Shown piece after piece: positions 3,621 through 8,727 of a stretch of DNA of 33,020 nucleotides. Source of the stretch: Phycisphaerae bacterium (GTDB lineage Bacteria; Planctomycetota; Phycisphaerae; Sedimentisphaerales; Anaerohalosphaeraceae); assembly GCA_012517095.1 (NCBI GenBank), contig JAAYVQ010000477.1, positions 1 through 33,020 on the forward strand, written 5' to 3'. The translations under genes and the position numbers were made by a program. The notes below the pieces were generated by a model. That model was not told the DNA's origin. It was given only the letters and a program-made list of their open reading frames with translations, and made no database searches. Numbering within the stretch: position 1 is the stretch's first letter; every line of letters begins with the position of its first letter.

Positions 3621-4523
3621 TTATCGCAATCCTCTGATAGCGCTGACCATGGCGGCAATATGCCGGGGAGAAGTCCCGCAGCATCCTCCAAGAATGCTGG
3701 CGCCGGCTTTGTAGATGTCAACGACAGCCGACGCGTATTCTTCTGGTGTCAACCGATAAGTGGCCTTTCCATCAATCAATTCGGGCCGTCCGGCGTTGGG
3801 TTCGGCCAATAAGGCAATCCCGGTTCGTTTGAGCAATCCGGCCAGCCGTTCGGTCAGGGCCACATAACCCTCCATGCTTAGGGTTCCACAATTGAAACCC
3901 AGAGCCGAAATGCCCGATCCGGACATTTTTGCCACAATCGTTTCCGGCGTCACCCCCATCATCGTCCGGAAACCCTCAGGCGACGGATCATAAGCAAAGG
4001 AACAGAGAATCGGCAGTCGGCAGACCGATTGAACGGCCTCAATCGCCAAGAGCATTTCATCCAAAGCGGTCATGGTTTCAATTATGATACCGTCAACCCC
4101 ACCCGAGACCAGACCTTGAGTTTGTTCGACAAATGCCGCTCGAAGAATGTCGGGTTTCAGAGAACCCACAGGTTCAAGAAAATCTCCACTGGGTCCGATA
4201 TCCCCGAGCACATATCGATTTGTGCCTGCAGCGGTCCGCGCGATCTGGGCGGCCGTCCGGTTGATTTCGGCGGCCTGGTCCGCCAATGCATGTCGTGCCA
4301 GAGTCACCGCATTGGCGCCAAAGGTATTCGTCAAGACGGCGTCGCAGCCGGCCTCAAAATACCGTCGATGAATTCGCTCAACAATCTGCGGCGACTGGAG
4401 ATTAACCGCATCAAAACAGCTTCCGACCTTTATCCCCTCAGCCATCAACTGGGTCCCCATCGCGCCGTCGATGAAAAAAAACACGCCGGATTTCACTCGT
4501 TCAGATAAGTTGATCCGGGTCAT
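3621..4523 (-). CDS. Homocysteine S-methyltransferase family protein
   Basis: The 300 residues cover one homocysteine-binding TIM barrel, like the N-terminal module of cobalamin-dependent MetH or the stand-alone enzymes that use S-methylmethionine or betaine. Visible marks are IDGAMGTQLM (18-27), TNTFGAN (65-71), IIIET (146-150), LGFNCG (208-213) and GGCCGTSPRHI (279-289). The expected zinc ligands are C212, C281 and C282. No folate, cobalamin or activation domain follows, so the methyl donor cannot be read from this gene; the other MetH domains could be encoded elsewhere. AGGAGGT lies just before the ATG, and the start overlaps the upstream lipoprotein stop by 4 nt (ATGA), indicating translational coupling. 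Confidence 0.9.
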   Translation of the reverse strand: MTRINLSERVKSGVFFFIDGAMGTQLMAEGIKVGSCFDAVNLQSPQIVERIHRRYFEAGCDAVLTNTFGANAVTLARHALADQAAEINRTAAQIARTAAGTNRYVLGDIGPSGDFLEPVGSLKPDILRAAFVEQTQGLVSGGVDGIIIETMTALDEMLLAIEAVQSVCRLPILCSFAYDPSPEGFRTMMGVTPETIVAKMSGSGISALGFNCGTLSMEGYVALTERLAGLLKRTGIALLAEPNAGRPELIDGKATYRLTPEEYASAVVDIYKAGASILGGCCGTSPRHIAAMVSAIRGLR

Positions 4524-5401
4524 GGTACCTCCTTCGCGGATCCGGTTTCAAGAAACTCACAAGACTCGGATAATTTGTACACATGGTCATAACCCTGGGG
4601 TTGGGGACGAGCAAAAAGTTTCCCCTTGAGCTGGGCTTCCGTGGGTTCAAAGACGGCGACATTCTGCAAACTGAGGATGGTCGAGGCCTGAGTGTCGGGA
4701 TGGATCCCCTCGATGGTAATGGTCGCCGGAACCAAGGGCCCTTTTCCCGGCTCAGGATAATCTCCAAGCAGAATAGTGATAACAACCAGGCCCTTGTCGA
4801 GGTATTCGATACGACCAATCCGACGATCGCAGGTCCCGACATAGAATCGTTTTTCCGGACGGTCCTCGGCGTCGTTTCGAGTCAGGACATCCCAACCCCG
4901 CTGACGGGATAGAGACCACGATCCGGTAAGGTCATACAGACCGCATATTTCCAAAAACAAGTCCGGATTGAGCCACAATCGGGTCTGACAGGATCGCAGA
5001 TGATCCCGCTGCCCCCACCAATACGCGCTGATCTCTTTCGGAGGCGCCGCAAGCCAGAATTCATCGGCATTGGATCCCAAACGGATTGTTTCACTGCCGA
5101 GAATATTGCCTCGAAGAAAAAAACGGTCCGGAGGAACAAACCGGATATCAATGGATGGGTTTTCCTCGTGAAGTTTATGATCGGAACCGATCCAGCGGAT
5201 ACGGCAACTGCCTCCGCTGCGAAGCGGTTGGACTTGATCACGGATCGATTTGAGATGGGTCAAAATTTCGTCTGCCGAAGCCACCCCCGGACAGGTTTGA
5301 ACGGGCGGAGGTTGAATCGGCGGTGTACAGCCGATTCCACACACCAGCCCCCCTGCCACCGCAGCCAGCCAGAACCAACGGCTTGGATGTGGCTGGATCA
5401 T
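4520..5401 (-). CDS. Putative lipoprotein, possibly LolA-like fold
   Basis: The 293-residue product starts with a lipoprotein signal: basic N-terminus, hydrophobic core at about 10-22 and a GIGC lipobox giving lipidated C25. A proline-rich linker follows (PPIQPPPVQ). The body alternates short beta strands with polar turns (for example IDIRFVPPDRFFLRG, then NADEFWLAAPPKEISAYWWG), which resembles the half-barrel LolA/LolB or outer-membrane-sorting type fold found in many planctomycete lipoproteins. I could not identify a specific family, so the LolA link is a guess from texture. Both ends overlap neighbours by 4 nt (ATGA at 5398-5401 and 4520-4523), tying it tightly into the operon. It probably sits in the periplasm, anchored to a membrane. 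Confidence 0.78.
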   Translation of the reverse strand: MIQPHPSRWFWLAAVAGGLVCGIGCTPPIQPPPVQTCPGVASADEILTHLKSIRDQVQPLRSGGSCRIRWIGSDHKLHEENPSIDIRFVPPDRFFLRGNILGSETIRLGSNADEFWLAAPPKEISAYWWGQRDHLRSCQTRLWLNPDLFLEICGLYDLTGSWSLSRQRGWDVLTRNDAEDRPEKRFYVGTCDRRIGRIEYLDKGLVVITILLGDYPEPGKGPLVPATITIEGIHPDTQASTILSLQNVAVFEPTEAQLKGKLFARPQPQGYDHVYKLSESCEFLETGSAKEVP

Positions 5402-5889
5402 AGTTCCACCTGAAGAATCTGGCCCATCTGGGAGGAAAGCTGCTCAATTTGGTCTTCCGCAAGGTGAGGATTAACCACCTGCACGCTGCGATCCTCGCCG
5501 GTGACGCGGAGGGTCCAGATCTCGCGACCCTCTTCCGTTCGGCTGGATTCGTATTTGAGTTTTCGTTTCCGCATCAAGATCAGCGTGAGAACAAATCGGA
5601 AGTTGACCTTTTCCACATCCGTTTCTTCCGAAAGACGCTCGAAGAAAGACACCAGCATCTCGTCGCTGACAAACAGGCGTTTTTTTTCGCGACCCTCCGG
5701 AATACGGCTTCTCCAAAAACAGTAAGTTGAGGGTTTTTCCGATTCCCAGAAAGAGATGGAATAATCCCTTCGTTCGAGTCCTTGTTCGGTCTGGACGAGA
5801 GCGGCGAAATAATCGGTCCCCGGTGAAAAGACAGTTCCGGTGCCGCTGCATTGTCCGAGGGGTTTCTTGATTTCCCAATCCGTTGCCAT
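5398..5889 (-). CDS. Conserved hypothetical protein (planctomycete-type)
   Basis: The 163-residue protein begins MATDWEIKKPLGQCSGTG and is probably cytoplasmic (no signal, no membrane segment). It has an N-terminal strand-rich part (residues 1-60, with one C-x-G-x-G and aromatic-rich strands) and a middle helical part with the striking stretch FRFVLTLILMRKRKLKYE (about 96-113), then NPHLAEDQIEQLSSQMGQIL at the end. I recall similar proteins in planctomycete genomes but know of no function. ATG 5889 is chosen because GGGAGA lies 12-17 bases upstream, just past the preceding gene's stop at 5894, and the sequence upstream in the same frame looks like shadow of that gene. Its stop overlaps the lipoprotein start by 4 nt. 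Confidence 0.8.
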   Translation of the reverse strand: MATDWEIKKPLGQCSGTGTVFSPGTDYFAALVQTEQGLERRDYSISFWESEKPSTYCFWRSRIPEGREKKRLFVSDEMLVSFFERLSEETDVEKVNFRFVLTLILMRKRKLKYESSRTEEGREIWTLRVTGEDRSVQVVNPHLAEDQIEQLSSQMGQILQVEL

Positions 5890-5893
5890 GGCG

Positions 5894-6280
5894 TCAATCG
5901 TCTCCCGCACCAGACCATGCCTGAAATTCCGTCCATGGCCGTAAATCCTCGGAAATCTTGGGGCCAATCCCCGGAACGGCCTGCAAGTCTTCAACACAGC
6001 GAAAACCCCCTCTTTCGGAGCTGTGCTGCCGTCGATACTCGACAATGGCTGCCGCACGATTCGGTCCGATGTTGGGGAGAGTCATCAGTGTAGAGAGGTC
6101 GGCGATATTGGGATTGACCCGAGAAATCAGAAATGGATGGCCTGAAGAATGATCGGCTGATAAGACATTCAAGAACAATCCGCTTATCGTGAGGACCGAG
6201 ATCAAGACAGCCAGAATCATTGCCCTATCCGGGATCCTGTATTGCGTTGGATTCAAATCACGCGGCATCGAAATCTCCAT
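5894..6280 (-). CDS. ComEA-like helix-hairpin-helix protein
   Basis: The 128-residue protein has one membrane segment (about 20-40) followed by a ComEA-type double helix-hairpin-helix domain. Its two hairpins read LPNIGPNRAAAI (68-79) and VPGIGPKISEDL (102-113). In competent bacteria ComEA is membrane-anchored and binds incoming double-stranded DNA in the periplasm; short HhH proteins of other function also match, so uptake is not certain. The start is ambiguous. ATG 6280 has GGAGG only two bases before it, while the in-frame ATG at 6268 has GGAG at good spacing. It follows the GH10-like gene by 12 bases and precedes the conserved protein by 4 bases. No other competence gene is in this window. 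Confidence 0.88.
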   Translation of the reverse strand: MEISMPRDLNPTQYRIPDRAMILAVLISVLTISGLFLNVLSADHSSGHPFLISRVNPNIADLSTLMTLPNIGPNRAAAIVEYRRQHSSERGGFRCVEDLQAVPGIGPKISEDLRPWTEFQAWSGAGDD

Positions 6281-6292
6281 GTCCTCCGAGGA

Positions 6293-7771
6293 TCAGGATT
6301 TTCGGTTCATAATGGCCTTCTGGAGCCGGGCAAGAACCAAGAGGGCCTTTTTGGGATCCAGTTTGGAACTGAGAAGACCCGCCGAAGGGATCTCCATCGA
6401 GGGACAGTCGGCAAGATAGGACCATGTTATCGACTGAATAAAGGGCTTCCCCAGAGCGATCCGGTACATTTGATCGACCCAATCGGCCTGGACATCCTGG
6501 TTCCAGGGTTGGTGCCATGTTCCGCCGGACGACCCTGCGTCTTCGGATACGGTTTCGGGAACCGCCAGACCCGAAATGTGAACGGGCTTGGCTACCTGGG
6601 CAAAACAATCCAAGCGGGAAGATATTTGCATCATGTCCCGGATATGCATACCCGGTCGATCCTTGCCGAAATGCATCATCAGCGAGAAAGCGTCAAAACT
6701 GATGCCGCTCTGGATTAACATGTCCATATAGACCAGCGGTGGGATGGTATTCCGGTTGAACGCGTAGTACTCTCCCCAGGGATAGAGCAGTTCGACCATT
6801 TTTTTCGAATTGGTATCGGCGGCTCGGGCCGCAAGACATGCGGTCCGGGTCATCTCGATGATTTGTTCGAAACTGAAATCGAACTCATTTTCCGCATGTA
6901 ATCCGCTGACCAATCGCCAGCTATGAATATACTTGGCATAACGGGAGACCATACGAGAGACAAATCCGTATGCGATTTCGCGGATTCGTCCGAACTCGAA
7001 TTGCCCATCAATCAGCCAGGCGGGCAAATCCTCGCGCGTGAAACGCAGGATCGGGCCGGCACAAACGGCCAGCCGACGGCCGGAGAGATGTTCAATGCAT
7101 CGATCAACGACCGAAAAATCGTATTGACCCTGATGGGGCTCAATTTGGGACCAGCGAATGGGAATGGTAACATGTCCGAATAACTCCAGCAGGAGTCGCC
7201 GATACCCGTCATCATCCAGCCAGACGGGATCAATTGCGATACCGAGACTATGGCGCCCCAGCCCTTTATTGTTGAGGCGGGCGGCCAGGCCCAAATCCGC
7301 GTTTCGAAGAGCCAGTTTTTCGGAATATTCGAAGGCCTTTCCGAGCGATTGATCCGCCAGATGCGCCGCGCGGTTTGGATCGTTAATATGCTGAAGTGCT
7401 TCGACAAACAGGGCCTGGGCCTCTCGGCCAAGGGCGGTCGATGCGTTCCCTTCCTCGAATAAAGACCAGTCTTCTTGTTTGAGGGTGATTTGCATCAAGC
7501 GGGCACGGGCCAACTCCACATTGAGGATGTAGGGTTCTTTCCGTTCGGGAAGACGAGTGGTCGGCAGAAAAATCCGACCGCTTCCTTCGACTTTCCACAA
7601 CAGGGATAATCCGGCCGAATCGCTGCTTTTCCGTTTACATTCAATCTCGCCGTCCCGAGTACGGATCGATTGCGTGGATTGGAGGGGAATCGTGTCCGCT
7701 CCAAATAAATAGGCGCCATTCAGGTCGACACCATCAGGACGCAAATCATTTGAAAAAACCTGGAATCTCAC
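6293..7771 (-). CDS. GH10-like (endo-xylanase family) protein with degenerate active site
   Basis: The 492-residue product has an N-terminal beta-rich region (1-165, including FLPTTRLPERKEPYILNVEL-like text) and a C-terminal TIM barrel (about 175-490) resembling family 10 glycoside hydrolases. Barrel cues are IPIRWSQIEPHQGQYDFSVV (203-222), AGPILRFTREDLPAWL (238-253) and SWRLVSGLHAENEF (284-297). In canonical GH10 enzymes the acid/base Glu lies in WDVVNE and the nucleophile in ITELD. Here the matching places read WRLVSG (G290) and VHISGL (G401), so both glutamates appear absent. PWGEYYA (331-337) is a conspicuous alternative acidic site. No signal peptide is seen. The start is GTG 7771 with AAGGA upstream; the nearby ATG hits a stop at once. 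It is probably the first gene of the 6-gene minus-strand run. Confidence 0.75.
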   Translation of the reverse strand: MRFQVFSNDLRPDGVDLNGAYLFGADTIPLQSTQSIRTRDGEIECKRKSSDSAGLSLLWKVEGSGRIFLPTTRLPERKEPYILNVELARARLMQITLKQEDWSLFEEGNASTALGREAQALFVEALQHINDPNRAAHLADQSLGKAFEYSEKLALRNADLGLAARLNNKGLGRHSLGIAIDPVWLDDDGYRRLLLELFGHVTIPIRWSQIEPHQGQYDFSVVDRCIEHLSGRRLAVCAGPILRFTREDLPAWLIDGQFEFGRIREIAYGFVSRMVSRYAKYIHSWRLVSGLHAENEFDFSFEQIIEMTRTACLAARAADTNSKKMVELLYPWGEYYAFNRNTIPPLVYMDMLIQSGISFDAFSLMMHFGKDRPGMHIRDMMQISSRLDCFAQVAKPVHISGLAVPETVSEDAGSSGGTWHQPWNQDVQADWVDQMYRIALGKPFIQSITWSYLADCPSMEIPSAGLLSSKLDPKKALLVLARLQKAIMNRKS

Positions 7772-7820
7772 ATGAATCCTTATCGAGTCACGACAATCAT
7801 GAATTGATTATCGAGTCGAT

Positions 7821-7892: not shown

Positions 7893-8189
7893 TCAGCGGA
7901 AAGCGAACTGAAGGTAGCATACATAGATAATATATTGCATGCCGACATACCCGAATGCGATGGCGATGCCCAGACCCGCCAGCTTGGCCAATCGAATCGG
8001 ATCCAATCGTTGCAGGAATCCTGAAGACGGAATCATTCCATTGCTGGTCACAACGGCGGGGACTTCCTGAGTACGATGTGACTCTGCCAGAACTTCGATT
8101 GCGTCGCTCAGAATTCGATGTCTGGTGTCCGCGTCCGTGGCGAGACGAAATCGTTTAACAAGTCGTTCTACATTCACTGCAAACCTCAT
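7893..8189 (-). CDS. Small single-pass membrane protein overlapping the ECF sigma gene
   Basis: I do not recognise a family. The 98-residue product has a basic helical N-terminus (MRFAVNVERLVKRFRL, then about 45 mostly polar residues), a linker, and one hydrophobic segment close to the C-terminus (KLAGLGIAIAFGYVGMQYII, about 70-90). The start is taken as ATG 8189 (AGG/GAGG just upstream); a TTG at 8201 in the same frame is less likely. The coding region overlaps the 3' end of the sigma factor gene by 35 nt in a different frame, which implies co-expression. Its placement directly after an ECF sigma factor is where an anti-sigma factor is often found, and the cytoplasmic-helix-plus-one-TM layout would fit, but no zinc HxxxCxxC motif is present. 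The role is inference only. Confidence 0.68.
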   Translation of the reverse strand: MRFAVNVERLVKRFRLATDADTRHRILSDAIEVLAESHRTQEVPAVVTSNGMIPSSGFLQRLDPIRLAKLAGLGIAIAFGYVGMQYIIYVCYLQFAFR

Positions 8190-8727
8190 GTCCTGCCTCA
8201 ATTTTGAACCGGTTTCGCAACCTCTGAATCCCGTATCGATAACGCCCCTGGACCGTATTGATGGACACCCCTTGCTGGACTCCGATTTCGCGAAAAGTCA
8301 TGCCTCCCAAAAGGTGCAAAAGAACAACTTCCCGCTGTTCGACCGGCAATTGATCCAATGCATCGTTGATTAAAGATGAACTTTCATCGGCGATTGCCGT
8401 CTGGTCCGGAGTTCGGCACGCAGACCGAAATGAATCCATCTCCAGAGAATGTTTCGGATGCCGATTCGACGATCGGAGCCAGTCTTTCGCCCGATTGGCC
8501 ACACAACAAGCCAAAAATGCCTTCAGCGATCCGGTCAGGCGAAACCCCTGAATCCCTTCGACGAAATCCAAAAACACATCGTGTAAAAGATCTTCCGCAA
8601 CGGCGTAGTTGTGGACCAATTTATAGGCCAACGAGATCAGAGCTCCCGCATATTTGTCGTAAATACGGACCAAGGCCCCGCTATCACCGTGCTTGACGCG
8701 AAAAATCAACAGCCGATCTTCGATCAT
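8155..8727 (-). CDS. ECF-type RNA polymerase sigma factor
   Basis: The 190-residue protein has sigma region 2 at about 15-85 (IYDKYAGALISLAYKLV, then EDLLHDVFLDFVE and a tryptophan-bearing DWLRS) and region 4 at about 125-178 (LDQLPVEQREVVLLHLLGGM, then TFREIGVQQGVSINTVQGRYRYGIQRLR), with the helix-turn-helix in the latter. Regions 1.1 and 3 are absent, so it belongs to the extracytoplasmic-function group. It would direct RNA polymerase to a small set of promoters. A GAGGG box precedes the ATG. The next gene overlaps its 3' end and may regulate it. No ECF-type -35 GGAAC autoregulatory promoter was found upstream. The C-terminus carries two Cys close together (CSECRTTC), unusual but of unknown meaning. 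Confidence 0.92.
   Translation of the reverse strand: MIEDRLLIFRVKHGDSGALVRIYDKYAGALISLAYKLVHNYAVAEDLLHDVFLDFVEGIQGFRLTGSLKAFLACCVANRAKDWLRSSNRHPKHSLEMDSFRSACRTPDQTAIADESSSLINDALDQLPVEQREVVLLHLLGGMTFREIGVQQGVSINTVQGRYRYGIQRLRNRFKIEAGHEVCSECRTTC

Follow-up and report, generated by a model that had tools for sequence, protein, structure and literature searches.

Enzymes of the GH10 family (PF00331), among them the intracellular xylanase IXT6 and Thermotoga Xyn10B, share an (alpha/beta)8 fold, and their retaining double-displacement mechanism requires both an acid/base and a nucleophile glutamate. The cell biology of planctomycetes is unusual, and they carry many lineage-specific genes without an assigned role. 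Outside GH10, pseudoglycosidases have been described in other families; YKL-39 (GH18) and klotho keep a glycosidase fold without catalysis and act by binding (PMC7828330). A study of Planctopirus limnophila counts 108 phylum-specific proteins of unknown function that are essential (PMC10632474), and its main text does not name the gene treated here. Xylanase and glycosidase are likewise unmentioned in the PVC signature-protein paper, and a search of open-licence papers returned no report on this family, nor of any GH10 pseudoenzyme that is a bacterial core gene.

In this study, we analyzed a GH10-like protein, here called pseudo-GH10, which is encoded in a planctomycete stretch of 33,020 nucleotides (the window). 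Like the GH10 enzymes it has the (alpha/beta)8 fold and retains W207, P250, W252, W285, D455 and K474. It differs from them in the loss of both catalytic glutamates, the beta-3 His and Trp, the beta-4 Asn, the beta-5 Asn and the beta-8 Trp, in an extra N-terminal domain, and in being a near-universal single-copy core gene. Its putative action by binding would resemble that of YKL-39 and klotho, although these belong to other GH families, are mostly animal proteins and are not near-universal bacterial core genes.

The coordinates of the gene, its domains, the residues discussed below and the adjacent downstream gene were listed in Table 1. The gene is a single open frame of 492 codons and is genuine. 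No signal-like hydrophobic N-terminus was found in the protein, which is probably cytosolic, and promoter and terminator scans gave scores not above those of shuffles. Open reading frames of 907-1390 aa at two related loci (L123 and L114) were considered as domain fusions that might give a clue to function, and were set aside as apparent high-GC frame extensions upstream of the usual start.

Table 1. Features of the pseudo-GH10 locus, in positions of the window.
Feature	Position	Strand	Remarks
Pseudo-GH10 gene, 492 aa	6293..7771	(-)	GTG start 7771-7769, stop 6293-6295
Ribosome-binding site AAGGA	7777..7781	(-)	5 nt before GTG
N-terminal domain, residues 1-170	7262..7771	(-)	Beta strands then three helices; AlphaFold2 pLDDT 83, Foldseek best E 0.23
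PYILNVELAR (80-89)	7505..7534	(-)	Start of helix 83-102
GH10-type (alpha/beta)8 barrel, residues 175-490	6302..7249	(-)	Pfam, AlphaFold2, Foldseek, hhalign
GPILR (239-243)	7043..7057	(-)	His 239 and Trp 243 in GH10, kept in 0/55
S289-G290	6902..6907	(-)	End of beta-4; replaces GH10 Asn-Glu acid/base
PWGEYYA (331-337)	6761..6781	(-)	After beta-5; E/D334 in 102/109; motif also in catalytic-type relatives
R378-D379	6635..6640	(-)	Conserved after beta-6; also in catalytic-type near relatives
S400-G401	6569..6574	(-)	Beta-7; replaces GH10 Thr-Glu nucleophile
S451	6419..6421	(-)	Replaces GH10 beta-8 Trp, kept in 0/55
Short ComEA-like helix-hairpin-helix protein	5894..6280	(-)	Downstream neighbour, 12 nt from pseudo-GH10 gene; N-terminal hydrophobic segment

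The original prediction of a GH10 fold is borne out by several programs, since GH10 profile similarity or an (alpha/beta)8 barrel was found by Pfam, hhalign and Foldseek and in the AlphaFold2 model. The Pfam GH10 profile matches residues 175-449 (E 1.3e-8, 34.9 bits against a cut-off of 22.1 bits), and phmmer against the PDB retrieves GH10 xylanases. The AlphaFold2 model (mean pLDDT 87.7, pTM 0.88) places the TIM-barrel strands after residue 175, and Foldseek against the PDB ranks GH10 xylanases at the top (E 3.8e-16, TM-score by target length about 0.6-0.8). Because the protein passes the Pfam cut-off, it would be annotated as an enzyme automatically and may be overlooked. Membership of the GH35/GH42 beta-galactosidases was also considered and rejected, the matches being local and short (residues 206-256 to PF02449; residues 201-229 to NF051902, 24.8 of 500 bits).

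The register of the two sites was tested by profile-profile alignment (hhalign) against true GH10 enzymes of the same and related genomes, which gave a probability of 99.8% and an E of 4e-30 over 311 columns. 'SWRLVSGL' was paired with 'AWDVVNEA' and 'VHISGLAV' with 'VMITELDV', so that S289-G290 falls on the GH10 acid/base Asn-Glu and G401 on the nucleophile Glu. In the model, beta-4 spans residues 284-289 and beta-7 residues 397-403, and both sites thus lie at the C-terminal ends of the expected strands. The residue numbers first given for G290 in WRLVSG (W285-R-L-V-S289-G290) and G401 in HISGL (H398-I-S400-G401) are exact, and the proposed absence of both catalytic glutamates holds by alignment register as well as by strand position. 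Lacking both, the protein cannot run the GH10 retaining mechanism. True GH10 enzymes are present elsewhere in the window's own genome, so xylan cutting is covered by other proteins.

Alignment of homologues at the sites pointed the same way. Glu was found at position 290 in none of 109 orthologues and at position 401 in seven, some of them in an 'ITEVEVP' context, and chance can therefore be excluded for the lost glutamates. The seven sequences are what a reading of residual GH10 activity in such lineages, or of substrate-assisted catalysis, would build on. All of them, however, are without the acid/base Glu, the preceding Asn and the beta-3 His and Trp, and in the window's own protein both sites are Gly, so that this reading is very improbable. 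An alignment error is scarcely credible, for the missing glutamates are all that would suggest it, while HMM, hhalign and predicted secondary structure all give the same register.

The loss goes well beyond the two glutamates. When 55 members of the pseudo-GH10 clade were aligned with 19 catalytic relatives, six columns that 17 or more of these relatives conserve turned out to be kept in no clade member: H239, W243, N289, E290, N327 and W451, which correspond to the beta-3 His/Trp, beta-4 Asn-Glu, beta-5 Asn and beta-8 Trp of GH10. Other GH10 columns are partly kept (Q365 in 10/55, E401 in 7/55 and H367 in 3/55), and the fold columns are retained almost throughout: W207 and P250 in 55/55, W252, W285 and D455 in 54/55, and K474 in 46/55. 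The set that marks a GH10 enzyme, namely the acid/base Glu, the nucleophile Glu and the other -1 subsite residues, is thus absent from the protein and wholly or largely absent from its clade. Almost the whole -1 subsite is gone in these alignments, and the pattern is that of a specific site dismantled within a preserved fold, not that of general drift.

An initial search of the order sample identified the gene in all 57 good genomes. A family profile then gave a match at E<=1e-3 in each of the 296 genomes sampled from the window's class; four of these matches fall short of 1e-30 and could be paralogues or fragments, and the class was for that reason counted as 292/296. The second class gave 118/119 genomes and 72/72 genera at E<=1e-30, bringing the two classes together to 410 of 415 genomes. 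Copy number at E<=1e-30 is essentially one per genome; the double matches in two second-class genomes (G364 and G736) cover separate stretches of the profile, lie on two contigs and probably represent one split gene in each. Of 247 genomes sampled across the phylum, 113 were without a match at this threshold, and those listed belong to other families. Among close pairs with unsaturated dS, dN/dS ranges from 0.03 to 0.26 and is mostly below 0.1. The gene is under strong purifying selection, and it is a core gene present once in nearly every genome of two planctomycete classes, not an odd paralogue. The conserved planctomycete subfamily with a VSG pattern, described earlier as possibly misannotated xylanases, thus exists and passes the GH10 cut-off, but was drawn too narrowly. 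That the gene is a decaying pseudogene, an idea for which the missing glutamates again offer the sole argument, is hardly tenable with a frame that is open in nearly all genomes and with this distribution and selection. Since nearly every genome in the two classes keeps exactly one copy, the protein probably has an important job other than cutting. Counts of GH10 genes in planctomycetes would overstate the capacity for xylan degradation, and at least one gene per genome should be excluded in these two classes.

Phylogenetic trees were reconstructed without the active-site columns. All non-catalytic members group together (support 100/99), and the closest branches are four glutamate-keeping relatives from other lineages of the same phylum: L143 (NE, TE), L176 (NE, SE), L174 (NE, TE) and L175 (NE, TK). 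These catalytic-type relatives share PWGEY-like and RD motifs with pseudo-GH10, and L143 and L176 also have a related N-terminal helical region. They differ in keeping the beta-4 Asn-Glu and, in three of four (Lys in L175), the beta-7 Glu. A single change explains the acid/base position on the tree, with which the quick tree agrees, whereas the nucleophile position needs six changes and varies within the clade among gap, G, S, A, D and E, with a gap in part of it and Glu in a few lineages. On these trees the acid/base Glu was lost a single time, in the ancestor of the whole clade. Both losses first reported are real; they are unequally fixed, the acid/base loss being shared by the whole clade and the nucleophile position variable. 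Descent from catalytic relatives, loss of catalytic residues and purifying selection, by which a pseudoenzyme is recognised, were all found. In this family an enzyme became a core pseudoenzyme in a single event, and catalytic relatives still exist with which it can be compared. As a separate observation, L174 and L175 keep Asn-Glu and have Phe in place of the beta-3 His, with the nucleophile changed to Lys in L175; they are a possible second, independent case of altered GH10 chemistry, judging from these residues.

We favour the reading that pseudo-GH10 is an ancient neofunctionalised pseudoenzyme with a putative cytosolic binding or scaffold role and without catalysis, to which we assign a probability of roughly 0.65. 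The starting point would have been a planctomycete ancestor whose GH10-like glycosidase carried a helical domain at its N-terminus. Its active site would have been dismantled once at the base of the clade now present in two classes, after which the gene would have become a single-copy core gene under strong purifying selection. The barrel and a conserved set of residues at the strand ends (W207, G239-P240, W285, P331-Y335, R378-D379 and D455) are kept, and the protein would most likely bind rather than catalyse, serving in the cytosol as a scaffold, sensor or regulatory subunit. The open barrel mouth, the newly invariant N-terminal segment T71-W102 or both may contact a glycan, a sugar nucleotide or a partner protein. 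The points that weigh against this reading are the conserved E/D334, R378, D379, D455 and Q428 at the strand ends, which a new chemistry could use, the Glu found at the nucleophile position in a few lineages, and the want of a downstream partner common to both classes.

The conserved polar residues raise the alternative of a rebuilt barrel in which E/D334, R378-D379 and D455 carry out a new chemistry on a different, possibly cytosolic substrate. E/D334 is kept in 102 of 109 sequences, and R378, D455 and Q428 in 52, 54 and 53 of the 55 clade members; E334, R378 and D455 lie at or just past the C-terminal strand ends of the model, and strong conservation in single copy is what an enzyme gene would typically show as well. 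However, E/D334, R378, D388, Q428 and D455 are common to the relatives that keep NE and TE/SE and therefore predate the loss, and 7/109 sequences have W, L, S, T or V at site 334. The PWGEYYA motif had been offered as the source of a substitute acid. Relatives with intact NE and TE/SE carry PWGDY, TWSEY or TWCDY at this place, and the relative with NE but Lys at the nucleophile carries PWGEY, so that the motif is older than the loss and is no compensation for it; this suggestion was dropped.

The residues that did become fixed in the clade lie mostly outside the barrel. T71, L74, Y81, R89, W102, G239 and G369 are at least 93% fixed in the clade and absent from the four nearest catalytic-type relatives; five of these seven clade-specific invariants fall within the N-terminal domain and the remaining two are glycines, which also speaks against a rebuilt catalytic barrel. 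L83, E86 and R89 are invariant across the non-catalytic clade, Y81 and R89 being specific to it, while E86 is shared with three of the four catalytic-type relatives, which are without R89, T71, Y81 and G239. A Foldseek search of the N-terminal domain against solved structures gave no convincing match. With five of the seven new invariants there, this domain is the place to which the data point as the seat of the new function. Of the two outcomes originally proposed, new chemistry or a binding role, binding or scaffolding seems the better fit to these sequence patterns; new chemistry, neither shown nor excluded, is in our view unlikely.

A lectin-like pseudoglycosidase, in which the groove binds beta-1,4-xylan or a related glycan uncut, would be a special case of the favoured binding role. 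Known pseudoglycosidases such as YKL-39 bind glycans (PMC7828330), and the barrel, W207, W285 and D455 are retained. Yet the residues that hold the -1 sugar (H239, W243, N327 and W451) are kept in none of 55 clade members, and the missing signal peptide-like N-terminus makes contact with external xylan unlikely; we consider this variant possible but doubtful. Equally tentative is an extension of the binding reading, by which a glycosidase fold would have been turned once into a cytosolic scaffold or sensor that defines the lineage, may be essential and serves cell biology specific to planctomycetes, such as envelope assembly or FtsZ-independent division. A new fold of the N-terminal domain would supply the binding.

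The neighbourhood of the gene was compared among related loci. The gene of a short ComEA/HHH_3 protein, hydrophobic in an N-terminal segment, is the next same-strand gene in 38 other loci, less than 100 nt away or overlapping, and in the window's class pseudo-GH10 is probably co-transcribed with this helix-hairpin-helix protein. According to the favoured reading, the two would probably be made together there, the partner being membrane-anchored. No downstream partner conserved in both classes was found among the compared loci. The upstream divergent gene in the second class and part of the first is, as we read its sequence, presumably purC (SAICAR synthase), and a large protein two genes downstream in some members of the first class is one that we take to be probably Mfd. 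Shared gene order supports orthology across both classes and yields no pathway.

Further genes around the locus were recorded. A conserved protein of ~162 residues (5398-6057, minus strand), with no Pfam family above its cut-off, lies two genes downstream and occupies the same place in many relatives. A lipoprotein-like protein of 293 aa (4520-5401, minus strand), without a Pfam match, has its gene order conserved in 33 loci. Just upstream of pseudo-GH10, an ECF-type sigma factor gene (8155-8727, minus strand) is overlapped by a small gene (7893-8201, minus strand) that was assigned to no family. At L002, L008, L012, L018 and other loci, a recurrent upstream run includes a conserved protein of ~156 aa without a Pfam match, a possible N-acetylmuramoyl-L-alanine amidase, so read from its sequence and below the cut-off in Pfam, and genes which, from their sequences, we take to encode an anti-sigma-factor antagonist and an anti-sigma kinase.
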